Source of the DNA: Dichotomocladium elegans | Lineage: Eukaryota; Mucoromycota; Mucoromycetes; Mucorales; Lichtheimiaceae | Assembly (NCBI GenBank): GCA_025716815.1 | Contig: JAIXMN010000004.1 | Location: 1,612,001 to 1,676,000, forward strand | Length of the DNA stretch: 64,000 nucleotides | Direction of reading: 5' to 3' | Part shown: positions 2,299 through 64,000 of the stretch, piece after piece | Layout of the letters: the number at the start of each line of letters is the position of its first letter | How positions within the stretch are numbered: position 1 is the first letter of the stretch | Notes under the pieces: model-generated | The model's input: the letters and a program-made list of their open reading frames with translations, nothing else | Told to the model about the DNA's origin: nothing | Database searches by the model: none | Position numbers and translations under genes: made by a program

Positions 2299-3491
2299 TC
2301 AACCTTGTAACTTCTCTTTATTGAGGCATATAGCGAAACATTTAGCAGAATGAGTTACAAAGCCTTTGAAGTCACTCATATATAAATTATCGCATGCCTC
2401 ACTGATTCTTGTCATTAGCGATTCCTTTTCCAAAAACTTATTCCGCTTAACTTTACTCTTGATAACTGACCAGAACTGCTCAATTGGATTTAGTTCAGGA
2501 AATATGGAGGAAGATAAACGCAGCGATATCCTCGAGAGTGAATATACTTTCCTATATCAATTGAGCTATGGTTTGGAGCATTATCCATAACAAGATAATG
2601 CCCTGTCACTGTTCCTATACTATAACCATCAGCTTCGCGTCCAACCTTTCTCTTTTTAATACGTTTTGGAACTCTCAAACTAACATTAATTAAGCCAGTG
2701 ACAGATATGGCACCTAAGATCGATGTTGCATTCGCTTTAGTTGTAGGTACTGTAACTATTGCTGGAGTTCCCTTCTTTGACCAGGCCATACCTCGTTTCA
2801 AATGAATGTGAAAAGCTGATTCATCCAGAAAGACGCAATTTGTTGTAAAGTCCATGTCAGTTTGCTGCCACTTTTGTACCCAATCGTACCTTTGTTGAAT
2901 CTTTTCTTCGCTATTTCTTTCTACAGGCTGGAATTGTGCCTGCTTAACAGATAAACTACACTCAGTTGCCATGAAGTTATAAATTGTGCTACGAGAAACA
3001 TTAAGATCCACAAAGTTTTGCGTTAAAATTTCTGCCACTTCAATTTAAAAGAAACTGCTTATGCTCCTCCGCAAGAATACGACGTCTACCTGGCTTTTTC
3101 TTCTTCTCAAAGATGCTTTCAGGGTCATCGTAATAACGTTTGACCCATCTCTGTGCTGCTCGGATATGAATACCTAATTGTCTCGCAGCAGCAGAAGGAT
3201 TCAAACATTTGCTGAAAAAATCTCGTCTTGTCTTCATCAGAGTAAAGTGTATAACGTCACTTATTGCATAACTCCATATCAACGTCTTCATTGTTCCTTA
3301 CATTAGTAACTGGATGTATTACAGGATTACATAGAAGGACTTTCCAGAGGTTTATTCATTAGGAATTGAGTACGACAACTTAGTGTTTCGATAGCGAATA
3401 ACTCCTCGTCAACAACAAAATCCATAGGCTCAACACCGTTCTCATCAAAAACGTGTCCTTGTCCATCTTCATAAAGAAATTGCACATTCAT
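2299..3491 (-). pseudogene. Tc1/IS630-type (DD34E) transposase, broken copy 1
   Basis: Relative of the intact transposase at 51207-52502. The N-terminus (MNVQFLYEDGQGHVFDENG) begins at 3491. The helix-turn-helix (AAARQLGIHIRAAQRWVKRY), the first catalytic Asp (VFLDES), the second (YLVMDNAPNH) and the PIEQFW Glu are all present, but in different frames. Damage visible: a stop near 3320, a frame break around 3039, a one-base deletion in PPYSPELN (about 2490-2500), and an in-frame loss of about 21 residues where two GHYL-encoding stretches have collapsed into one. The right TIR-like end with a TA dinucleotide is at 3714-3715. Not expected to be functional. Confidence 0.9.
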
Positions 3492-9637: not shown

Positions 9638-9769
9638 TACACTAGTTTCCAAAATCGAAGCCGCACCCCTGCCAGTTCTGAAGTCGCGTTTTGCCCAGAA
9701 TACGCATGCATCCACGGAAAGATGTCGCACAAAAAAGGCTTGGCAACTCCATCACCATAAAAATTCCTC

Positions 9770-10665
9770 CTTTTGACTCTTTCTCTTTTATACACTTTTA
9801 CATTCTGAAATGAATAACCTATTTTCAATGAAGATGGCCAAAGTCATGTTGATGATGAAGAAATATGCTCTCTGCAATCCAGTTGTTCTCGCACTGAATA
9901 TCGGCGTGGCATATCTTGCAGAGATAAACTCTGATCTTACTACCGCACATATTCCCAAGCGAAACGATACAGACATTCGGACGAAAGAAGCGGGGATCAA
10001 GCACAGTGACCTCATACACTGACCAAAACAAGGTCAGATTTTTCAAACGGATATTTGAGAAGGTCTTGAGTGCATCAGCTGCTAGGAATCCATGTTCCTT
10101 CAGCCCAGCGATATGCGTTACAGTACGAGAAAGAGCACCTTTAAGAAACCTAAAGCGGTGGTTGTTCTCCTATTCTCAATGAGGAGCCTAAGAGCATTAA
10201 TTTAGAGTGCGTTGATCAGAATCCATCGGCTGTACTAGAGCAGCTGATGGATCAACTGCTCCAGAGAGTCGAGGACCTCAAAGTATCTAAAACCACGCTC
10301 TATCGAATTATTGAAAAACGAATGCAATTTGTCATTGGAAATGGTTCAGTTTCAGTCTGTAGACAGGAATAGTGCTGCTTAAGATCCGAGAGCGCCTTGA
10401 CTGGATGCGCAAATGGGACAGGACCGACATTGACTTTAGAAAAAACTGCGTTTTCCTTGATGGGTCTGGATTCCATATTAATATGAAACGCAGCATGGCA
10501 TGGTCCAATAAGGGGCTCCTGCAGTGGCCATAATACAAAAGACAAGAGCAAAGACAACCACCATCTTGGGAACAATCTCAGAATCATGGGTCGTTATAGC
10601 TTGAGACTCCCACAGCCCCCATTCAAGAAAAGAAAGAGGGCAGGTCAATCTGAAGTTACGTACTG
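9770..10665 (+). pseudogene. Tc1/IS630-type transposase relic, copy 2
   Basis: Heavily damaged relative of the transposase at 51207-52502, same strand throughout. Recognisable pieces are IPKRNDTDIRTKEAGIKHSD (about 9950-10010), a helix-turn-helix remnant around 10080-10130, LLKNECNLSLEMVQFQSVDR (about 10310-10365), a degraded VFLDES region near 10450, and KTRAKTTTILGTIS (10540-10580). It stops abruptly near 10660, within the GQSE segment, so the catalytic C-terminal third is missing. Confidence 0.85.
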
Positions 10666-12218: not shown

Positions 12219-12680
12219 ATGATAACTCGGGGAAGCAGGCCCGTGGCGAATACTAGATGTGATGAATCTATGTGTGATATAGGCTTGGGGCAGTTATTAA
12301 ATAAGAAGAGCTGCAATGTGTACTTAATCGACGAGTATAAAACCAGCAAGTGTTGCCCTGCGTGCGATAATGAGAGCTTTACGGCCTATAAACTGGATGA
12401 CCCGACAACTCTATCACCACCAACTGTCATGGTCTGTTATGGTTTGGAGGGCTATCAAGTTTTGTTCTATTCCAAAAGATTCTAATATTTTAATGTTTCA
12501 ATAGATGCTCATTCAAACTGTACTACAGCAAACATGGCAGAGAGTATCTGTCGACCACTGTTATCTATGAAACCAGGATCTGGAAACGACTCAACATGCA
12601 TCGTATACTCGGTGGCCTCGGGATTGACGACGGTGGAAGGCCAGGTGCATCTGAACAAAAGCGGCAGAACGTATCACCAC
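12219..12680 (+). pseudogene. Fanzor (eukaryotic TnpB-like nuclease) C-terminal fossil
   Basis: The frame CNVYLIDEYKTSKCCPAC (about 12310-12365) is nearly identical to VYLIDEYKTSRCCPTC of the intact Fanzor at 48071-50295. MVCYGLEGYQ parallels MVLCHGLLRYK, where the intact gene has its intron donor. A TTTCAATAG acceptor ends at 12504 and is followed by ATGCTCATTC, matching TGCAG plus ATGCATAAAT in the intact copy, so the intron position is shared. The next exon reads IWKRLNMHRI against YWNRDLAACLNMHAI: the RuvC-III catalytic Asp and its neighbours are deleted. The donor GT also appears lost. A dead copy. Confidence 0.8.
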
Positions 12681-21651: not shown

Positions 21652-22726
21652 GGATTATTGAGTGCTTTTTTTTTCCTGGGGACAGGACAAAATTCAATCT
21701 TATTTGATGCTTATGGTAGGGCCGGCTTGTTTTCTTGATGGGTATTAGGGTGACCATCCACAAGATGAAGCTATTCAGCTGTATCACTACCCGCGAATAA
21801 TATTTTATTAATCCTTTCCTGACACTTTTTAATCGCTCGATATTATGTATACTTTCTATATTTTCTCCACCTCCGCACATCCCCCCCTTCCCTATCCGTG
21901 TCGTCTCTACGTACGTAATACTTTTTAGTTGTGGCAATGCAACCCGGATATACCATCCCTATCTTTACAACAGTACAGTAACAAAAACCTCATTTTCTTT
22001 GTTGTGTTGGTCAAAGCAGCCCCCCTGACGAAAGGGGTTCGGTCCTTATCATGAGGGGCTACCATGATTATTTTCGGACATAAATTTCGTACATGAGATA
22101 AAATAACGACCGCGTCGATGGATTGATATTCATTAATCTGCTGCTGCGAACAGCAACCCTTTCACTTCCACTCAAGGGTCCCGAAGGACCCAGGGGGTTA
22201 TCATGGGTAGTGTTGGCGATAAATGGGAAGGAGAGGAAGTGCCCGCACATCAGAAGAGAGGACAGCAGCAGCAGCAGCACCCAGAGTGCCAGACAAGGGG
22301 GGGGGCACAATACCTTTTTCTGTTCAATTCTATATTGTGATTGGGTCAACTTGAAGAAAAAGCAAGCAGAGCTCGGGTTGATCTAATACTGCTGTCTTTC
22401 TTCTGTTCATTCGTAGTCAAGACAGATCCTTTCCGAGCGGTCCCTGGTGTGTGTGTGTCAACCCACATAAACGAAACCAGATGGGCCTCACGTCGCATTA
22501 GTTCATTTGTCTCGTTCGCGTGCAGTTTATTTTTGTGGCTGATTACCTCAACGAAAGCAAGCCGATCCACACCCCAGAGGACCAGGCAACCAATATATAC
22601 AGGATCCTTTGTATGATCCAAAAACAAACGGTTGTCGGGGTAGCAGCGCCGCGCCTAAAGGCTGCTTCTTTTGTCTAAATCCTTTCGTTTGGGGAACATG
22701 CATATCTGTAAAGGACAGAGTTTCCC
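21652..22726. other. Intergenic downstream of RasGAP
   Basis: Contains T/C-rich runs and a GGGTCCCGAAGGACCC perfect inverted repeat (about 22168-22183), plus a CAG-rich patch near 22263-22282. No coding signal recognised. Confidence 0.4.
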
Positions 22727-22990
22727 CTGCAAGATAGACTACGCAGATATTTTGTGCGAAAACAAACGCACTGAAGAGAGTTCATTTCCTCATCAACGGT
22801 ATTGCCCATCTTGCGAACAATAGCTCTTTATCTCGGAATGTAAAATGGATAGAGACATGGAATTTCCATCTTTTTTTTTTGTGCCATATCTTTCGCCGTG
22901 CATGCGATATTGCCTTTGTCATCACGCGCAAAGGTTTCTAGGCAAAACCCCGTCTTTTATTTTTGTGATCCTGCAACTACCATTTGTCCT
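22727..22990 (-). pseudogene. Tc1/IS630-family fragment, copy 3 (5' end and terminal region)
   Basis: The plus-strand text GCAAGATAGACTACGCAGAT, ATTTCCTCATCAACG, GCCCATCTTGCG, TTGTGCCATATCTTTC and CATGCGATATTGCCTTTGTCATCACGC parallels 52350-52640 of the intact element block by block. It corresponds to the N-terminal coding region plus the subterminal region of the transposon, with the rest absent. Confidence 0.7.
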
Positions 22991-27479: not shown

Positions 27480-27951
27480 GAGACATGTATTCCGGCTGCT
27501 TGGCAAAGTATCGCGGGAAAACCTGACCTTGTCTTGGTTAGTGTATGATGTAACTGCGCTTGATCCCGGCTTCTTTCATCCGAATATCTGTATCCTTTCG
27601 CTTGGGAATGTGTGTGGTAGTAAGATCAGAGTTATCTCTGCAAGATATGCTACGCAGATATTCAGTGCAAGAACAAACGTATTGCAGAGAGTACGTTTCT
27701 TCAACAACAACATAGTCCATAGATTCAGGCCAGCCACGCTCATCAACGACGTGACTTTGGTCATCTTTGTAAAAAAAAAAAAGTAGGTTGTTCATTTCAG
27801 AATGTAAAAGTGCACAAAAGAGAAAGAGTCAAAAGGAAGAGATGGAAGCGACATCTTTTCGTGGATGTTTGTGACATTCAAGCGTCTTATGGGCAAAACG
27901 CGACTTCAGAACTGGCAGGGGTGCGACTTTTGATTTTGGAAAATAATGCAT
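27480..27951 (-). pseudogene. Tc1/IS630-family fragment, copy 4 (N-terminal end)
   Basis: Minus-strand frame MNNLLFFFYKDDQSHVVDER continues through EETYSLQYVCSCTEYLRSIS and IPKRKDTDIRMKEAGIKRSY, matching residues 1-85 of the intact transposase. It then degrades near 27490. The terminal region to 27951 carries GCGACTTCAGAACTGGCAGG and TGCGACTTTTGATTTTGG, the same TIR family. The catalytic domain is absent. Confidence 0.85.
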
Positions 27952-45820: not shown

Positions 45821-45945
45821 TACTTTATTTTCAAAAATAAATTTCGTAAAGGAGGAAAATTATGACGCATACAAAGTAAAATAAATGCCGCACGAAAATA
45901 CATAATTTGTCGCATAAAAAATAAAATAAATGTCGCATGGATAAA
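45821..45945 (+). repeat. Left TIR-like end of the composite element
   Basis: Begins with TA and a T-rich CAAAAATAAATTTCG block resembling the inverted end at 12923 (CTTTCAAAAAGATTGATTTC). Four GNCGCA motifs follow at about 45867, 45888, 45909 and 45933. Confidence 0.55.
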
Positions 45946-48070
45946 GAAGACCGCAGAGATACTCGTTAGTCAACAGAAAATATTCTTACTCTTGAACTTA
46001 CCCCGAAGGTAGCTAGGTGTACCATTGCGATAACAATGGCGGAAAGGGAGGAAAGAAAGAGACCGGAGCTGTTGAGCGTCGACGGCGGATGCAGCGGCTG
46101 AAGGGTTGGAAGAAGGAACGAGGAGGAACGACGACGGACCAACGACAACACCAGCACCAGAAGCATCGGGGGGAAGCAACGGAGGAAGCAGACGAAGACA
46201 AAAGCACCTCGACGAAGCCATGGTGGGAGACCTGCGCGGGTGCAGCCAAACCACGGTCCCACCCAAAGCCCATATCCTCTCGTCTTGGTGCACTTGAGTT
46301 AGGCTGATATCGTTATCTACAGAGGATCTGGAATATTAGAATGGAACAAGTCGGTATGATAGGGCTGCATACCGTTCAAGACACAAGAGAGGAAGAGGAT
46401 GGATTTGGTAAAGAAAATCACTTGCCCAAGTCCCCGTTATTTATAATGAAAACGATCCAGAAATAATCAAATGCAGACACATTAAGGAGTACATGCAGAT
46501 ACATAAAGGAGTGCGCCCAACCACATTGTCACCACTGATACCACTTCAGTGTAACAACAAGACTGTAACAGTCCGAGCAACATCTATCATGTGGCTTTGA
46601 TTACCAAGCAGCACCTCAACAGGACTACTAAGAAATTTGATGGCCTTACCAAACAACACTATCCCCAAAGCTAAGCTTCCATTAGTTAGCAATACAATAA
46701 AGATCAGTTCCTGTTTTATTCCCTTGTTACGACGAAGTCCAGCATTACGCGCTTGTAGCACGAGAGTCTTTCTATGGGGGTTTGTGTTAGGTGGTTCTTT
46801 CCTTCCTTACTGAGATCACCCGCAGGTAACAATGTAGTGCAGGAGTAAACAGACAGAAGATTTTTGCTTTCTACTAAAAAAAACCCCTCCAAGAGTCTCC
46901 TTGTACTTTGACTGTCCCACAAACCTCGAAATGATCACAACCATCATACCGTAGTGGTCGCAACTACATCTTTATAGATGAAGTACCTCAGTAATCTCAA
47001 GAGTATCAATTCCATCTATAACACCCATACCAGAATTAACAAGTATTAAGTACCAAGAATCTTAGCAAAACCAATAAAACCAAGTTTTCTAACCTCCAAG
47101 CTATGTACTTGTTTTCTTTTTATGTCACTCAGTATTACATTGTGGCGACGACATCGTCACTAAGTCCCGCACGAGAACTCCTAGACGCTGTTCAGTTAAG
47201 AAAGTAAACAGAGAATAGAGACAAATTTCGAACTATTTTTACTCATCCTACCAAACAAGCGAGTAATGACATACAACCACATTAAGGAGTACATTCAATC
47301 ACTCGGGTATATTGTTTGTGATTGATGAATGCAGGCGTACTCATATTTGATGGAACGAACAAGAAAAGGCATTGCACTTCCGTAGTACTTACTAGGGGGT
47401 TTCACTATATGAAACATTTCAGGATGATTTCTCTATTCTATACTATGGGTGTTTATACTGTTTAACGGTTCTGGACTAATGATATCTAGTGCATACGAAT
47501 CGAATCTAATGGATGGTTAAGCCGTCCTTCCCAATGACATCTTCATCTTCCGATCCTTGGACATAGAATATTTACTCATCTCAGAACTCCGGTCAATTGG
47601 CTGCGCGTTAATGACAAACTGTTCCACTGGGCTTTTAAGAGGGTTTGCCGAATAGATGATACCACCATGTACCCCTGTAGTAATCGGTGGTTCACTCTCG
47701 TCAACAAATATAGCGCGATTAATCACTCCCTCTTTTTCGACCCCCTTTTTTTCAAATAAAAACAATCCACTAATTATCACACAGATGGAACCCTTTACTG
47801 TTAAATCACTGGAGACAAAACAAACGTTTTCCGGGCTCCTTATTTTCAATCTAGGGGAAATCAGATGAGTCAACATTCAGCAGGACCATCCTTGAGCGGT
47901 TGACCCCTGAAATATGTCATTAGCCATGGATATTTAAACAGAATTCTTCACCCCTTCTGTACAATTTCTGTAAACACTACAACTGCATCTTATAGTAAGA
48001 GTATGACTTTGGCCACCATACATGACTGCAGCATACTAATGTACGGTTATACTACCCCTAGATCAGAAAA
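45946..48070. other. 2.1 kb upstream of Fanzor inside the element; no recognised gene
   Basis: A GC- and purine-rich patch (46030-46270) is open in several frames, but these look low-complexity. The 17-mer CACATTAAGGAGTACAT occurs at about 46478 and 47279, with a diverged ACATAAAGGAGT at about 46501. Minus-strand frames at 46546-46761 (hydrophobic, LIFIVLLTNGSLALGIVLFG) and 47517-47876 are open but unidentified. The AT-rich 200 bp before 48071 probably hold the Fanzor promoter. Confidence 0.4.
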
Positions 48071-50295
48071 ATGACACATCAAATCCGTGTTTTAGCAGTC
48101 AAGACCTCGTTTGACAGCATTGGTTGGGCCGATCATCTTCGTCAAAAGCTGCAAGATTTGGTGAACATCACTCATATTACCACGACGCATGCCTATGCAT
48201 TTGCCAAGTTCATTTTCATCAACGAATTAGCAATCAATCCCGAGTTTGCGATCGCTACATACATCACTCCTGCGTTCTTTTCGCAAGTCTGGCTATCATT
48301 GATCGACAAACCTGAACACCGACTACGCCTAGGCTCTCCAGCCGATATCAACCGTCAGTTGATAAACAGACATCGTGCAGAGTATCTTCAGATCACCCAG
48401 TACAACAGGCAACCCCTTGCCAATTCTCAGCAGGTGTCCCTCTACGAGGGCAAGAAAATATATGTGGCCTACACCAACAACGTGAAAAATCGGTTCGGCC
48501 AACATTTCCGGCGAGCGCTGAATGTTATTTTGAACATCCGACAGCTGAAAGCAGATCTGAGACAGCGGTTGTCCGCTGAGGGCAGGAACGAGGAGGAAAT
48601 TCGGCGAGCCATCCACGAAACCATCACTTCGCCCTGTACAAGATTCAAGCTGGCCATCGGCCGCCAAGGTGTACGCAGAGAAGACATTGAAACTGATCCA
48701 CCATACCTCATATCGGCCTTCGATGCCATCCAGCCTGTTCTGAACAGTTATGACAGCCATTACCAATTCCAAAAAAGAAGCATCTATTACGATGCCAAGG
48801 CACGACCACAAAACCATTTCCGGGCATTTCACCAGCTTGCCATTCTCTTCCAAGGCCTAGACCTACCACTCTTCAGCTGCTTCCCCATCCGCCGATCACT
48901 TTCACCTTGCTACATGATGATCGATACCAAGATTTTATGCGAACAGTTCCTAGGCCACAAGATGCCACCAAAAAGACAAGTTCATCCAAGGATACACTGG
49001 GGACAGGTTGTTGACCTGGACAATGTAGTTTTCAGGAGCCAAGAGGGTGATACACTGCAATTCCGGTGGACCATATACACAGACGGGGTAGGAGTCACGA
49101 TTCTCAAGAGCGAGACAGATGTTGATCACGGACCCGAGCAAAGGCCAACTCCAGAAGTGGGGGATACAATGTACTATGGTGCCTTGACAAATCAGCAGCG
49201 CGAGGAGATTACAGGTCCACTGGTTACCATTGACCCAGGTAGAAGAGATCTTCTATTCTGTGTGGACGCTGGTTCCACTCCTCAGAACCCTTTGAAATTT
49301 CGGTACACCAAAGCCCAACAAGACAAGACCCGCAAGACCAAGAAGTATAAAAGAATTATCCGAGATCTCAAGCACGCGCGACCAGAAGTTGAGGCCGCCG
49401 AGCTCCGTCTGTCCGAAACACGAACCACCAGCCTTCTACCCAACGAATACAACGAATACTTACGTGTTAGCGCAGGCACACGCGAGATTCTCAGTGCCTT
49501 CTATGCTGGCACAACCACCAACCACGAGCCCACTCGCCCGCTCATTCGCAAGCTACGCCTGAACGCGTATATCAACAAGCAACGAGCTGATCAAAAGCTC
49601 GTCGACGATTTAAAAGAAAAATTTTCCATTGACTGCGTTTTGATCATGGGGAACTGGTCTGCACCCCACGTTCGGTACCACGAGCCCATCCGAGGCAAAG
49701 GCCTTCGTCAGATGCTGAAGTCCCATCACATACCTGTCTACCTTATTGACGAATATAAAACAAGCAGGTGTTGCCCCACATGTGAGGAAGACAGCCTGAG
49801 GACGTTCCGGTGGATTCATAACCCAAGACCGAATCCTGCACCTGGGAATGAGATGGTATTATGCCATGGATTACTCAGGTATAAAGTTTGAATTTTTACA
49901 AGTCACAATCCAACGCATTCTTTGAACTCTGCAGATGCATAAATACCAACTGCATGCCGGCCAACGAAGACGGTCAACAGCAATACCGGTATTGGAACCG
50001 TGATTTGGCAGCTTGTCTAAACATGCATGCTATTGCCAACAGTATCCGGGTCCAGGGCGAAGTACCAGCAAGATTCCGCAGAGTAGCCTTTGTTGAGGCG
50101 GTTTTCCCCGAGGCAGCGCCTGCTACTGGTGTTAGGGCTCATTCAGCCGAGCCAGAACAACGGAATGTAAGGCAGCGGCGAGAACGAGGGCGAGGACAAA
50201 GGCGAGGGCGAGGACAAGGGCGAGGGCGAGGACAGGGGCGAGGGCGAGCACACGGGCGAAGACGAGGACAGCGACGAAGACGACAAGAGCAATGA
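48071..50295 (+). CDS. Fanzor: eukaryotic TnpB-like RNA-guided nuclease, intact, one intron
   Basis: 722 aa from exon 1 (48071-49878) and exon 2 (49935-50295), joined by a 56-nt GTATAA...CTGCAG intron in phase 2. Start MTHQIRVLAVKTSFDSIGWA, the first ATG. The N-terminal 370 residues are the variable REC/wedge-like part. RuvC-I is VTIDPGRRDLLFCV (D388). At the RuvC-II position there is MGNWS (526-530) with no Glu; the conserved acidic residue lies about 34 residues later in IDEYKTS (E561), the rearranged active site described for Fanzors. Zinc ribbon: CCPTC (C568, C571) and, after splicing, RCINTNC (C604, C609). RuvC-III: YWNRDLAACLN (D626). The tail is a 40-residue Arg/Gly-rich repeat. Known family members use an omega-RNA to cut DNA. 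Lies with a DDE transposase between TIR-like ends. Fanzor1-like is my inference; the subtype needs phylogeny. Confidence 0.92.
50180..50290 (+). repeat. In-frame GAGGRCRAGGGC-type repeats encoding an RG-rich Fanzor tail
   Basis: Short units such as CGAGGACAAGGGCGAGGG repeat with small changes and encode RGQRRGRGQGRGRG and similar. The tail is strongly basic and could serve nuclear import or RNA binding. Its length is likely to vary between copies. Confidence 0.8.
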
Positions 50296-51206
50296 TAAGG
50301 AGAAGAATGATGTGGTCTGGACGAGCACAAATGCAACGGAGGATATGAACGCAATGATACTATTACTTTACCTTCTGTACACTATTCTTTACCAAGTATA
50401 ATTTTATTTACAATATATACAATACCTTAAGGGCTCAGTATCGAAAAGCCATGATGTGATCAACAATTGGTGTCTCTTCTGGTATCAATTTTGCCCTTCT
50501 CTTGCCTGAAGATTTACTCCTCGAAGGCATTTTTTTGTTGGCTTGATAATGAGTTGCATTTTCATAGTGACGGCAGGCGTTTCTACTGCTCCGTTTTCGC
50601 TACCTGGTCGTCCTAGCACCACCAATTTATTTTATATCACCAAGGTAGTTTTATAAAATTTCCATCCTACCGGCCCAAACGCCACGCCAAAGCCTTTCAA
50701 AAGTCTCCTTTCTCCATCGTAAAAACAGACCTCCTTGAACTCGGGCAAGAGCCTCCAGAAACCACCCTTCCCTTTCCCTGCACAACAATTGCCTTTGAAG
50801 CAACATCCGCCTGCCATTCGAGTCCGCCTTCCGACATTGATGAGGACGCTCTTTCATCAACCATCAGTTTCTTTAATCACGCTCCTTTGCGCCTTCAGAC
50901 GCCATGGCTGTCTTGTGCATACCGTCGACTCTTATTAGAATTTATTGGTACGCCCACAACCAGTTCATCCGCCTTCGTCCTCCATCAATACCATTACACA
51001 TACTCGTAATAACCATCACCAAAAGCTAGCTCCTTAATATTACATATGCTTTTTACATTATTCACGTCTTTAGTTGGTGCCATGTACGGAGATATTAGCG
51101 AGATAGATTTGTAAATCAACGCCGCATGCTGTACTTACTTTTGCTGTGTACCTTGAAACATCAAAGTTTGTATTTATGCTGCTCAGTGAAGTTATGGAAA
51201 GACGCA
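50296..51206. other. Spacer between Fanzor and the transposase; candidate omega-RNA region
   Basis: In TnpB/Fanzor systems the guide RNA usually overlaps or follows the 3' end of the nuclease gene, so this stretch is a candidate by position only; no structure was computed. The minus strand encodes a 31-residue frame MPSRSKSSGKRRAKLIPEET...FRY (about 50530 to 50438), perhaps part of a third element gene. C-rich open frames at 50632-50938 are not recognisable. Confidence 0.35.
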
Positions 51207-52502
51207 TCACAGTGGCTCTCGGTTACGACAGTTGGATAAACATCTAAAAGAATGAGAAACGAAACCTTCAAAATCACTCAGCTTTAAGCTATTGGATGTT
51301 TCACTGATTCGGGTTATCAACGTCTCGCTTTCCAAGAACCTATTGCGTTTTACTTTACTTTTCACAACTGACCAAAACTGCTCAATCGGATTGAGTTCAG
51401 GCGAGTATGGTGGAAGATAGGCACATCGATATCCTCGAGACTCGATGTATTTAGAGATATCCTCGGCTTTATGGATTGGTGCATTATCCATTACCAAATA
51501 ATGGCCCTTCATATGTTCATACTTATCCATCTCATCCATTGTTGCCTTAAGAAAGCTGAGATAATGTCCAGTTACAGTTCCTTTGCTCGCAGCTTCCGAC
51601 TGACCTGCCCTCTTTCTTTTCTTGGTTGGTGGCTGCGGGAGTCTCAAGCTACATTTAATGATGCCTGATGGGGAGATTGCTCCCAAGATTGTGGTTGTCT
51701 TTGCTCTTGTCTTTGGTACTGTGACCACTACAGGAGTCCCTTTCTTGGACCATGCCATGCTGCGTTTCATATTAATATGAAACCCGGACTCATCAAGAAA
51801 AACGCAGTTTTTTCTAAAGTCGATGTCGGTCGTGTCCCATCTGCGCACCCAGTCAAGGCGCTCTTGGATTTTTGCATTGCTATTCCTGTCTACAGGCTGA
51901 AACCGTGCCATTTTCAATGACAAGTTGCATTCGTTTTTCATAAACCGATGGAGTGTCGTTTTGGATACTTTGAGACCTTCGAATCTCTGGAGAAGTTGCT
52001 CCATCAGTTGCTCTAGAACAATGGATGGATTCTCATCAACACATTCTAAAATAACGCTCTTGTGCTCTTCATTGAGAATACGCGAACGACCCCTCGCTTT
52101 AGGTTTCTTAAAAATGCTGTCAGGGTCCCTTTCGTACTGTAATGCCCATCGCTGGGCTGAACGAACATGGATTCCTAGCTGTTTTGCAGCAGCTGATGCA
52201 CTTAAGACCTTCTCAAACATCAATTTGAAAAATCTGACCTTGTCTTGGTCCGTGTATGCTGTGTAACTGCGCTTGAAACCCGCTTCTTTCATCCGAATGT
52301 CTGTCTCCTTTTGTTTGGGAATGTGCGTAGCAACAAGCCCAGAGTCATCTTTGGAAGATATGCTACGCAGATATTCAGTGTGAGAACAAACCGATTGCAG
52401 TGAGTACATTTCCTCATCAATGACATAGTCCATAGGTTCAGGACAGCCACGCTCATCAACGACATGGCCTTGGCCATCTTCGTAGAAAAAAAGATTGCTC
52501 AT
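51207..52502 (-). CDS. Tc1/IS630-type DD34E transposase, intact (431 aa)
   Basis: Start chosen at MSNLFFYEDGQGHVVDERG (52502), because the related copies at 27795, 3491 and 9810 begin at the same place. The frame is open 42 codons further upstream into the terminal region, but that extension is not conserved. Domains: acidic N-terminal 80 residues, helix-turn-helix (ASAAAKQLGIHVRSAQRWAL), a second HTH (SKTTLHRFMKNECNL), then the DDE nuclease: CVFLDESGFHINMKRSMAW (first D), YLVMDNAPIHKAED (second D) and PPYSPELNPIEQFW (E), with 34 residues between second D and E. This should catalyse cut-and-paste transposition at TA sites. No frameshift or stop is visible, so it may be active and could mobilise the relics in this window. 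Confidence 0.93.
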   Translation of the reverse strand: MSNLFFYEDGQGHVVDERGCPEPMDYVIDEEMYSLQSVCSHTEYLRSISSKDDSGLVATHIPKQKETDIRMKEAGFKRSYTAYTDQDKVRFFKLMFEKVLSASAAAKQLGIHVRSAQRWALQYERDPDSIFKKPKARGRSRILNEEHKSVILECVDENPSIVLEQLMEQLLQRFEGLKVSKTTLHRFMKNECNLSLKMARFQPVDRNSNAKIQERLDWVRRWDTTDIDFRKNCVFLDESGFHINMKRSMAWSKKGTPVVVTVPKTRAKTTTILGAISPSGIIKCSLRLPQPPTKKRKRAGQSEAASKGTVTGHYLSFLKATMDEMDKYEHMKGHYLVMDNAPIHKAEDISKYIESRGYRCAYLPPYSPELNPIEQFWSVVKSKVKRNRFLESETLITRISETSNSLKLSDFEGFVSHSFRCLSNCRNREPL

Positions 52503-52559
52503 TTCAGATTGTAAAAGTGTATAAAAGAGAAAGAGTGAAAAGGATGAATTTTTATAGAA

Positions 52560-52698
52560 ATGGATTTGCCAAGCTTTTTTTGTGCGACATCTTTCCGTGC
52601 GTGCATGTGACATTCGATTTGTCATCATGCGATTCTATTTTTGCCATCCTGCGACTTCAAAACTGGCAGGTGCGACTTTGGTTTTGGAAAAGAGTGTA
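52560..52698 (-). repeat. Right TIR-like end of the composite/IS630 element
   Basis: Read inward from the TA at 52697-52698: TACACTCTTTTCCAAAACC, AAAGTCGCACCTGCCAG, TTTTGAAGTCGCAGGATGG, and ATGTCGCAC near 52590. The same blocks recur at 9638-9700 and 27880-27951. The end lies 9 bp from the stop codon of the medusa-type gene. Confidence 0.75.
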
Positions 52699-52706
52699 TG
52701 TTTCGT

Positions 52707-54416
52707 CTACAGATATCCTAGGGTAGAAGGTGGGTGATGCGTGTAGTGCTGGCCATGTTGACTATGCTGCTGCACGCCCGCCGTGCTGCTGTAGCTAGGT
52801 GTGTATTTACGGATGATTTTGCGTAAAGCATGGGGCAATGTCTTCCACGCAAAGACCTTGACGTCCTTTTCGATATTACGAGGCTTTGGGTGTGGAAAGC
52901 CCATGATGAGTTTGAAGAACTCTGCGCAATCGGGCTTGCATTTGCTGACGGTCAAGGGCCGGAAGCCCTCAAGATTGCGCCGGATTCGGTTCTTTTCCTC
53001 GACGGTGAACTGAACGCCGATCAATCCCTCGAGAAGATAAATGCAGTCTACTGATGTGATGTAATAGTCGTTTCTTTCGCGCCAATAGATGCATGATACG
53101 ACTAACGTTGTGTTATTAGCAGATGATGATAATGGTGATGGCGAAGACGATGCCGGCGATAATGTAGACGACACACTGTTGTTGTTGTTGCTGCTGCTAC
53201 TACTCATGCCTTGATGTCGCAGAGGATGTTGGCCCTCACTCGCAGCGGCAGCAGCGGCAGCAGCTACGGCGGCTGCTGCCGCGGCGGCCGCCATGTTTTC
53301 ACGCATCCGCTGCTGCTGGAGCTCCTGTTGGTCCATGGGTTGAAAAGAGCATGCGATCTGACTATGGCCCTCCAAGTTCTCGCCGTCTGCCTTGCGGATG
53401 AACTGGACGAGTCGGCGGCCGGCGGCCCATTCTTGCGACGTCCAGTTGAGGGTCATGTCACTCAAATCACCGCAGATCTTGAGATGCGCCTTGTTCAGTA
53501 CACCTGCAAAGTTTTGAGTGGTGTAGTAATAATTTGCAGTGGTGGAACTGGTGTCAGTGGTAGTAGCATTAGAAGCAGCAGACGCTTCAGTTGTTGTCGT
53601 GGCGATGGTGGTGCTCGAAGAATTCGAGCATGTGGGCGCGATAGGCGCGGTGTGTTTAAACTCTTGATTCGCGTACGGGGTCAAAAGCTGCAAGAGTTGA
53701 TAATTATCTGATTCAATAGTCAACAAGTGTCTTCTTTTTTCTGGGGGGGGAGGGGCGCCGTGTGTGTGTGTGTGTCCTTACCTGCTAGACTAGTGTGTGT
53801 GTTCTCCTTGAGAATATACGTAAAAGTGCCAAACGCAAAATGGTCGATGCGCTCGTCTGTGTATACGACAATGGATAGTGGCACCTGCCCAACGTCAATC
53901 TGGAGCGACGTAGGTGGCGGGACGCGGGCACACAGGTTAATCCACACGCGGGGTTCGCTATCTTCGAATGATGGAACGAGTTGGTGCTGCTGCATTGTCT
54001 CGACCACTACCATGCCAAACATGAGCTTCATGCGAGGGACGTGCGACAGTTTCTGCTCCAGAGTCACGGAAAGCATATTGTCTGCCGTGCCTTGCTGGGG
54101 ATACCATTGGACCACCCTTCGCTCGAGTGGCATGAGTATATCCTCAGGGTAATAACCTATATCTAACGAAGACACAGTTCAGGCTGATCTTTCTCATATT
54201 TGATGACGTCCTCATTACTATACCAAACGATGAAGATGCTCCAGATGCAGCAGCGGCAGCCACAGATTCGGACGAGGCGACTGTTGTCGGATCGGATGCA
54301 GTGATCGCATGCTGATGATGATGATGATGATGCTCGTGTTCGTCTTTGAAGGCAAGGACACTCGTCTCGTCGTGGTTTAGGTTGATGCCTAATTCGAATA
54401 TATTATAGCATGCCAT
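52707..54416 (-). CDS. Medusa-type (MedA-like) developmental transcription regulator
   Basis: Start MACYNIFELGINLNHDETSV at 54416, followed by a His-rich stretch and Ala/Ser-rich sequence. A middle exon has DILMPLERRVVQWYPQQGTA, LMFGMVVVETMQQHQLVPS and PLSIVVYTDERIDHFAFGTF. The last exon holds the conserved core: LKICGDLSDMTLNWTSQEWA, GRRLVQFIRKADGENLEGHS, DYYITSVDCIYLLEGLIGVQ, FTVEEKNRIRRNLEGFRPLT, VSKCKPDCAEFFKLIMGFPH, KPRNIEKDVKVFAWKTLP and RKIIRKYTPSYSSTAGV, the signature of fungal medusa regulators. It is interrupted by a poly-Ala tract (about 53230-53300) and Ser/Asn runs. Medusa proteins control conidiation or adhesion programmes in ascomycetes; the role here is inferred. The transposon end lies 9 bp from the stop codon. 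Confidence 0.85.
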
Positions 54417-62082: not shown

Positions 62083-63480
62083 CTGAAAGAAAATAGTATG
62101 GAGGACGTAGCGTAAAGGAAAAATATCGCGTTTTCCCGAACGCGATAGAGTAAAGACGCGTCACAGGCACTGAAACACGGTGCCTCGATTAACCCACCCA
62201 GAAAGATCCGCCAATCATTGTGCTCATAAACTCTTAGTTACAAGCTCTACCTCGCTTAAAATCCGTATCATCGTCTTACATACACCGAACGGGGAGGGGC
62301 TGATCTTCGCGCGTATAAATGACAACAGCTTTGTTCATAGGAGGCATCCCTCTGGAAATATTTGCCTTTAATCATATGTTAGATGTTGCATGCACGACTG
62401 CAATATCGCACAAAGAAGGTTGGTAAAAATTTGAACTCCAATGATTATAGAAGCGGGACAGTTACTGTACTTCGACCAAGTTATCCGATTCTCTTTTTTC
62501 TTCATGCAAACGTACACTATGGTGATCTACGAAGAATTGCGTAGATGTACAAGGTCAGACTATAGCCCCCTCCCGCCACAATTGCTAGCTAAACATAGAG
62601 AGCAAGAGACGAAATTCTCGAGATCGATAATGCTCCAAAAGTTAGACGTTCTACTGACAGCCATCATCTACTACTCACTTTTCAAAAATATATTACGATT
62701 TCCTCTTTCCCCGTATTATTCAGGATGGGATATTTAATATATCGTCGGTATCTGAGAGGACCTGTTTTCACTTATTCCATTTATTAGCGTCTTCGGGAAT
62801 CGAACGATTACCCTGCCACTCAAGAGCACGTTTTATTAATAGTTAACACGAACAACGACTGATACCGGAATGATCCTGGTCTATGTTCCTAAACAAAAGC
62901 AATAAACATGTTCGCAAACTTGAATGTCCAGTCATCTCTCGATTTACCGGTCACCATATATACTGATAGAGTATTTACCGATTGTTTTTTTTTTTTTAAA
63001 AAAAAACATGCATCTTTTGACGATAAATAAGATTGTCGGTGGCCGTCGGGGCTCTCCATACATAACACTAAGATTTGTCCAATAACCCGATCTATCTCAA
63101 CTAGGTTTCTCAGTCCTATTACCTGTCTTGTAAATCTGCGTAGCTTTTGATATCTCAATCCGGACACTATCAGAATCTCCAAAAAAGATGTGCAAGGTTG
63201 CTGCCTCGATAGACGGGAAAAAGTCTATTTTTTGAACGGTTGGGCGTGCAACAGGTCAAAGAATAGGATAACGTGCCTTACATTTGCCGTAGCCGAAAAC
63301 AATCGCGATTAAAGTATCCGGACTGCGTAATTAAAACGAATATCAATGTATAGCCCAGTTTGGCAGTGGCATTCGCTTTATCAAAGCCGTTCACTCCATC
63401 TCTTTTTTGCCTTAGACAGCATGCAGCCCCGTTTTACTGACTTGTTCTATTCTGCAAACTTCTAACGTGTTTCGCATCCT
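62083..63480. other. Gene-poor stretch
   Basis: Contains a near-perfect T-run/A-run palindrome (about 62985-63007). Frames at 62441-62737 (+) and 62889-63182 (-) are open without recognisable motifs. Might hold the 5' parts of the Fanzor relic at 63.5 kb, but none was identified. Confidence 0.35.
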
Positions 63481-63486
63481 TTGTAG

Positions 63487-63600
63487 ATAAAGCACATATC
63501 TAACTCAAGTCCTTCTAGACGGGAGAATATCGAGTATTGGGTGGGACCGCGATTTGGCAGCATCCGCATAGCGTCCCACCATGGGATCGTCGAGGTGCTG
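63487..63600 (+). pseudogene. Short Fanzor 3'-exon relic
   Basis: TTTGTAG (63487) followed by ATAAAGCACATATCTAACT parallels the intron acceptor and exon-2 start of the intact Fanzor (CTGCAG, ATGCATAAATACCAACT). Further on, GGGACCGCGATTTGGCAGC (about 63544-63562) differs by two bases from GGAACCGTGATTTGGCAGC, which encodes the RuvC-III motif, and reads WDRDLAAS. A TAG follows two codons later and the frame is broken upstream. Only this exon is recognisable. Confidence 0.45.
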
Positions 63601-64000
63601 CCGCTGTTTTCCTCCTCTCACCGGCCATTGCTACCATCAATGATATTTCTAGCTACATTTGGAGGAAGAAATAGGGTTGAGGCTTTCCCGTAACTGATAG
63701 TTATCTTTTCTTTACTCATCCATCAGACGACGTTATATTTTTTCGTCCGACGTTTTACCTTGTATACGCCATAATTTCCTTTCCCCTTTGTGAATTATAT
63801 TTGAAAATGTGTAGGCGGTATGTTGTTGCACGCAACTCGCTACGAAACTATTGTGTTGTGTCCATTGCTATATGCTATTCATGCCATGGTAACAAATAAA
63901 AGCGGGAGCTCTCTGTTTGGAAGACGTAAATGGAAAAGGGGAGAGCGCTGTATTTTACGTACATGAGATGGATACCACGAAAGTTATGCTTTTGAGGCAT
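63601..64000. other. Right edge, nothing recognised
   Basis: AT-rich sequence with no open frame of note up to the window end. Confidence 0.35.

Follow-up and report, generated by a model that had tools for sequence, protein, structure and literature searches.

A 64,000-nucleotide stretch of the genome of the mucoralean fungus Dichotomocladium elegans (contig JAIXMN010000004.1, positions 1,612,001 to 1,676,000; hereafter the window) contains, at 45821-52698, a 6.9-kb Tc1/IS630 (DD34E) element with an intact transposase gene on the minus strand and an intact Fanzor1 nuclease gene on the plus strand. We call the transposase end, which lies on the right in the window, LE, and the opposite end, on the left, RE. 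RE carries a conserved block that looks like a Fanzor guide-RNA scaffold, and the signals of a spliceosomal intron run from the edge of this block to the last AG of the transposon. We favour, with a probability of roughly 60%, a model whereby the scaffold is spliced at this terminal AG, such that the terminal repeat would be an intron and the scaffold would be fused to the TA and adjoining host DNA, the latter acting as the guide. If correct, a single transposon end would serve both transposase binding and the guide-RNA scaffold by splicing one out, which would be a new route of guide-RNA making in eukaryotes. We found no report of splicing in the making of Fanzor guide RNAs in the accessible portion of the open-licence literature, although this does not establish its absence from print; the word "intron" is absent from the text of PMC10432273, where "splic" occurs only in the title of a reference, and neither occurs in PMC10711439.

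An earlier note, made from the letters of this DNA, had placed both genes inside one pair of matched inverted ends, and this observation is confirmed. Over their outermost 28 bases, the left end and the reverse complement of the right end agree at 19 positions without gaps, a match equalled at only 6 of the 127,944 window positions (both strands, true site counted), and the same inverted-repeat ends occur in relatives. Both ends also carry TCGCA motifs, at 45910 and 45933 on the left and, inverted, at 52583, 52628, 52650 and 52671 on the right. The genes thus enclosed encode a Fanzor1 of 722 amino acids, once a single predicted intron is removed, and a transposase of 431 amino acids. As the note had stated, no left-type end lies between them at up to 5 mismatches, save for a single site within the Fanzor gene (5 mismatches), which we take as chance. 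The element is a natural pair of DDE transposase and Fanzor with both genes intact, and bears on what Fanzor does for its transposon.

Relatives were sought throughout the genome (39.4 Mb in 122 contigs), and 86 loci were read. They show four architectures, which a few copies, such as C50 and C31:18759, do not fit cleanly. In type A, a transposase lacking approximately its last 43 residues is joined to a 521-bp RE. In type B the two genes stand in tandem on the same strand, the transposase being matched only to around residue 332-353 (4 loci). Type C, the Fanzor-only family, has a Fanzor with an N-terminal piece of transposase (about 150 residues in most), and type D, that of the window, has the two genes convergent, whole or in part. 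An alignment of RE from 27 non-redundant of 47 copies revealed one block common to all four types, which opens with a hairpin whose loop is UUAUCG or UUACCG. The 3' end of the scaffold reads ...CTACCTTCGGG. Base pairs were counted in 16 of the 47 rows, leaving out 25 type C copies with a longer, poorly aligned scaffold, four near-duplicates (L020, L021, L027 and L048), L011, in which the region of the second stem-loop (SL2) is different, and L014, a type A copy in which the loop of the first (SL1) is not recognisable. The seven pairs of SL1 were paired in 91.1% of cells, with changes on both sides at five of them, and the two pairs counted in the UUCG hairpin that follows were paired in 81.3%. 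Over the whole structure there were 13 double-changed cells, compared with 3.3 in shuffles, none of 500 of which reached 13, and sliding the partner by 1-3 columns reduced pairing from 88.9% to 31-46%.

A covariance model built on this block gave one strong site in the window, at 46048-45973 on the minus strand (89 bits, E value 1.3e-24; the training set included this copy). A decayed relative contains a weak second site, at 63616-63691 (E 0.017). Untrained copies were matched as well (for example L016, E 2.5e-23; three type C copies, approximately 1e-8 to 4e-9), and the model matched 10 of the 20 loci given to it, several of the other ten of which do not extend to RE. The only Rfam match was sub-threshold (E 1.2) and was dismissed as chance. 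Published Fanzor1 guide RNAs have a seven-pair SL1 in three solved systems, and that of Parasitella parasitica Fanzor1 (PpFz1) has a four-pair SL2 between SL1 and the guide (PMC11423790, seen in part). Since its SL1/SL2 layout fits these RNAs, the RE block looks like a Fanzor guide RNA. We considered whether a guide RNA might instead lie downstream of the inverted Fanzor gene; this was rejected, since a search of both window strands for the scaffold core and SL1 loop found them within the element only at the left end, and none between the genes. The putative guide RNA and the nuclease gene are, on this evidence, separable modules, because they lie on opposite strands in the window and because Fanzor-less copies keep the RNA.

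The scaffold is followed, in order, by a GTAAGT 5' splice site, a branch motif TTTTCTGYTGACTAAC, an AG-poor stretch and the terminal AAAG|TA. We examined 41 copies that have both the branch motif (at most 3 mismatches) and the terminus (at most 4), and counted AG in 16 non-redundant ones (below 85% identity), excluding the first 4 nucleotides after CTAAC and the terminal AG itself. Between branch motif and end there were 3 AG dinucleotides compared with 40.6 expected from base composition, while GA, at 64, was not depleted. The neighbouring stretches were close to expectation, with 73 AG against 72.6 in the 140 nucleotides upstream of the splice site, and 50 against 50.9 from there to the branch motif. 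As a control, the right end read outwards had 52 against 83.3 (11 non-redundant of 39 copies), and the difference from the branch-to-end stretch gave a Fisher P of 1e-6, in which the copies are not independent. AG exclusion zones have served to locate distant branch points in human introns (PMC1431707, seen in part). The sequence has the signals of a spliceosomal intron: a 5' splice site, a branch-point motif and an AG exclusion zone reaching to the 3' AG. A shorter intron ending at an AG just after CTAAC was also considered; this AG is present in types C and D and in C50 and missing from type B and the counted type A copies, and was rejected as not being a conserved acceptor.

The same arrangement recurs genome-wide. 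There were 161 exact signatures of the form GTAAGT-N15..45-TTTTCTGYTGACTAAC and, as it happens, also 161 exact RE termini with TA, and neither reversed pattern occurred once. Comparing 95 of the 161 signatures with 98 of the 161 termini, among the matches listed, 45 signatures had an exact terminus 62-136 nucleotides downstream on the same strand, and none had one on the opposite strand within 400 nucleotides. Near-identical splice-branch stretches (GTAAGTTAAAGCGTATGGAGGAGTAGTG...) recur among the signature matches listed, for example at G000:C1:525710, C13:725012 and C35:413305; this family may represent a high-copy guide-RNA-bearing element.

On the favoured reading, transcription into RE would yield scaffold, repeat and flank, and splicing would then remove the terminal inverted repeat, which the transposase needs as DNA, and join ...CTACCUUCGGG to UA and the host flank, which would become the guide. 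In types D, A and B, a four-pair UUCG hairpin (UACC-UUCG-GGUA) would be completed by the UA gained on joining. After transposition, the flank would guide Fanzor to cleave the unoccupied allele or the sister chromatid, and the element would spread when the break is repaired from the filled copy, as has been proposed for TnpB (PMC10432273, seen in part). Transposase-only copies, which keep the RNA, could use Fanzor in trans. A wider version, for which we see the odds as even, is that the guide RNA is assembled by the spliceosome, so that each insertion turns the host DNA beside the terminal AG into a guide exon and the 161 exact signature loci form a self-written guide library served in trans by Fanzor genes located elsewhere in the genome; many of these loci are probably without an intact Fanzor.

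Several points weigh against splicing at the terminus. Transcription, splicing and guide use are predicted from sequence. AG is scarce in the right-end control too (0.62 of expected), such that the effect may be partly common to both ends, and the nominal P of 1.8e-14 for the depletion is too small, as the copies share ancestry. The count was also helped by its design: copies without a recognisable terminus or branch motif had been removed ahead of it, the excluded 4 nucleotides after CTAAC contain an AG in type C and D copies, and the terminal AG, present in 39 of the 41 copies, is there partly by construction, because the search pattern contains it. AG occurs inside the counted stretch in 2 of the 16 copies (one in C1:2089824, two in C24:902198). 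The branch-to-AG distance, 46-142 nucleotides across copies, is long for a fungal intron. In types D, A and B an unspliced GUA would supply the same UA to close SL2, so this hairpin does not discriminate. Finally, the terminal repeat and target duplication are predicted to lie within the guide-RNA scaffold of one Fanzor1 system (PMC10711439, seen in part).

This precedent also speaks for a guide RNA that is not spliced at all, in which the scaffold would extend across the inverted repeat with its terminal hairpin, and the guide would begin after the TA, as has been described for other Fanzor1 elements. Published Fanzor1 guide RNAs extend into the right-end repeat (PMC10432273, PMC10711439, both seen in part), and there is high conservation of the terminal hairpin TTTATTTT-TG-AAAATAAA. 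Against this reading, a 5' splice site at the scaffold edge, a branch motif, and an AG depletion whose strength is limited to the region from branch motif to terminus would go unexplained, and the stretch varies in length from 46 to 142 nucleotides. Scaffold, repeat, duplication and flank are contiguous in the DNA, but the splice signals argue that they are not so in the mature RNA. We consider an unspliced guide RNA unlikely, though it is the strongest competitor of the spliced one. Less probable still is that the intron is real and ends at the transposon terminus but belongs to messenger RNA processing, in a 3' untranslated region of the Fanzor or transposase gene or in a fusion to a host exon. 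Such a role would fit the splice signals and the type C copies, in which Fanzor is followed, on its own strand, by the intron, but the RNA that would form the exon up to the splice site is structured, shows compensatory changes and resembles Fanzor1 scaffolds, and it is retained in copies that lack Fanzor.

The window Fanzor is homologous to the solved Fanzor1 proteins over most of its length (655 residues were used in the comparison), its nearest solved relative being PpFz1 (E 2.4e-125), with SpuFz1 at E 1.4e-38. Its DPGRRD, DEYKTS, CPTC, CINTNC and WNRD motifs all line up with those of PpFz1. We take the first two and WNRD to supply the acidic RuvC residues, and CPTC with CINTNC to form a C4 zinc finger, with the corresponding catalytic and zinc-binding roles. 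Approximately 110 residues that PpFz1 has between two aligned stretches, presumably its RuvC insertion, are missing from the window protein. A Pfam GIY-YIG match (E 0.052, under the cut-off) was dismissed as chance. In the Fanzor-only family the gene appears to be under purifying selection: among 15 type C copies with a frame of equal length, set against a single reference copy, 74 distinct single-base codon differences comprised 40 synonymous and 34 non-synonymous ones, where equal rates would give a synonymous share of 22.6% (P 4e-9, nominal and uncorrected for shared descent). Moreover, 20 of 26 Fanzor-only copies have no stop in the matched Fanzor stretch, although one of these (L059) is frameshifted. 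Taken together with the conservation of the RNA, this makes it very improbable that Fanzor and RNA are passive relics and the transposase alone matters, as the many broken or Fanzor-less copies might otherwise suggest.

The transposase matches the NCBIfam IS630 model (NF033545) with 164 bits against a cut-off of 100. In its residues D237, D339 and E374, chosen by motif, the last two are 34 residues apart, which gives the spacing DD34E. Among the best 120 of 632 matches, the closest named relative is from Rhizomucor pusillus (82% over 95% of the query), Rhizopus relatives reach 77%, and the best named ones are from Mucorales.

The DNA search for relatives gave at least 107 matches (40 of 1444 candidates scored) and the Fanzor protein search at least 80 (72 of 774 candidates scored). 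At least 21 of the former are type A copies, and those inspected retain the scaffold. Type C accounts for 26 of the 30 Fanzor loci fetched, in blocks 90-99% identical to the reference copy; these elements were probably moved by transposase in trans. Type C, with copies such as L032 and L061, looks like a burst: similar elements that bear Fanzor and a truncated transposase sit at unrelated loci. Type D was found at seven loci (the window, C44, C28:712798, C29:45724, C32:190248, C46:799318 and C46:2059853). The C28 copy (712798-720500) is collinear with the window element but decayed, whereas in the last three the Fanzor match stops near residue 366; in the four further loci with Fanzor pieces the far end was not reached, and mobility with exact borders is best documented by the window and C28 copies. 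The C44 fragment, with only part of exon 2 left, has 10 mismatches to the window in 2704 aligned bases (99.6% identity), 4 of which fall in the transposase gene without changing an amino acid. Since it is nearly identical but has another flank, type D has moved recently. Loci C43 and C40:35700 resemble deletion derivatives of type D.

The earlier note had suggested that the nuclease may travel as cargo, and had held that transposase copies with their own left end, in a genome with no two-gene copies, would speak against this. Its interpretation is partly supported. We found at least 21 transposase-only copies with the same left end, yet copies with both genes exist too, and the convergent pair recurs; the two ends are, however, not equivalent. 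Because the left end carries the guide-RNA-like scaffold and predicted intron, Fanzor looks wired to one transposon end rather than being plain cargo. In the window it reads away from RE, its strand being the opposite of that of the scaffold. Upstream of the scaffold sits what is left of the C-terminus of an older Fanzor (WDRGLAA), and the type A copy C57:644478 has WNRDLAA likewise (both read by eye). For this reason, RE of the window type probably descends from a tandem transposase-Fanzor element, the intact Fanzor being a second, inverted one.

Transposon ends that double as intron ends have a parallel in IStrons, which self-splice as group I introns (PMC4227781, seen in part). The signals in the window are spliceosomal. 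In IStrons splicing conflicts with the guide RNA, whereas here it would make, not destroy, the guide RNA. As the earlier note had said, Fanzors in DDE transposons are known in principle: the Tc/mariner elements of Bao and Jurka (2013; PGv-1, PUl-1 and others) likewise hold a mariner-type transposase and a Fanzor1 in one pair of inverted repeats with TA duplications, and their set also has Fanzor-only elements with mariner repeats (PMC3627910). The window element differs in having a scaffold and predicted intron in one end and a Fanzor inverted relative to the scaffold, and no guide RNA is described in the available part of that paper. Fanzor inside a Tc1-type element is thus already known, and the present arrangement, with Fanzor inverted and neither gene broken, adds a new member. 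Spu-1 and its ghost elements in Spizellomyces resemble the present family in their right-end guide RNA and in many Fanzor-less copies that keep it, but no transposase was found inside their repeats and the guide-RNA region encompasses the right-end repeat (PMC10432273, available part). PpFz1, the closest solved protein, shares the scaffold plan, with an SL1 of 7 bp and then a short SL2 ahead of the guide, and guide-RNA splicing is not mentioned in the available parts of PMC11423790. The SfAV Fanzor1 reRNA also lies at a transposon end, with an RNA boundary adapted to the transposase; it is predicted to keep repeat and duplication, whereas the window RNA would lose the repeat and keep only the TA (PMC10711439, seen in part).

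The TA edges noted earlier are present on both sides of the window element, yet in relatives the dinucleotide just outside the right-end TACAC does not vary freely. Among 25 type D, A and B copies with a placeable end it was CA in 17, TA in 7 and TG in 1, a count that left out degenerate right ends (C51, C35:1928910, C1:2089824 and the decayed window copies). As these bases are constrained, a clean TA duplication is not proven for the window copy; it is seen cleanly only in the Fanzor-only family, where a script found TA on both sides in 20 of 21 copies, with an index offset in the remaining one. A T follows the RE-side TA in 19 of these 21, giving a preference for WW-TA-TA. We rejected a target motif drawn from these flanks, since choice by Fanzor and choice by the transposase are not separable. 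The earlier note had also proposed looking for empty sites with a single TA. Joined flanks of 7 type D/A/B and 12 type C copies (19 of the 29 joined) gave no bridging match in the same assembly, every flank half matching its own locus only. Outside the LE TACAC, window-type and type A copies have CA (often AACA). In type C copies the outer LE is often identical to the start of the RE-side flank (TATAC..). In L049, L046, L036 and L056 a variant LE (TATAGC, TATACC) matches the copy's own flank.

Table 1. Features of the two-gene element, in window coordinates
Feature	Position	Strand	Basis or remark
Composite element, architecture D	45821..52698	.	canonical order runs right to left: LE - transposase - inverted Fanzor - RE
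RE terminus TTTATTTTTGAAAATAAAG (hairpin)	45823..45841	-	its final AG would be the 3' splice site; TA (45822-45821) and flank come next
Predicted 179-nt intron	45823..46001	-	GTAAGT 46001-45996; branch-point-like TTTTCTGTTGACTAAC 45980-45965; AG-poor stretch to 45823
Guide-RNA scaffold (predicted)	46002..46048	-	covariance-model match and pair counts
SL2, UACC-UUCG-GG, ends at splice site	46011-46002	-	pair counts
SL1, 7-bp stem, UUAUCG loop, outermost pair G-U in window	~46040-46021	-	pair counts
WDRGLAA remnant, C-terminal RuvC motif of older Fanzor in canonical orientation	46241..46261	-	read by eye
Fanzor1 exon 1	48071..49878	+	gene model
Fanzor intron (predicted), 56 nt, GT..AG	49879..49934	+	same position in type B and C relatives inspected
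Fanzor1 exon 2: zinc finger (second half), WNRDLAA motif and basic tail	49935..50295	+	protein alignment
DD34E IS630/Tc1 transposase, 431 amino acids	51207..52502	-	DD34E spacing, NCBIfam IS630 match
LE, four inverted TCGCA motifs, terminus TACACTCTTTTCC	52583..52698	-	end comparison with relatives

Elsewhere in the window there are decayed relatives of the same transposon at 2308-3491, 9638-10660, 22648-22928, 27518-27943 and 63376-63808, and a Fanzor piece at 12231-12458. An open frame with a DUF7082 match (E 2.7e-65) lies on the minus strand at 52707-53726, its stop codon lying 8 bases outside the element's right edge.

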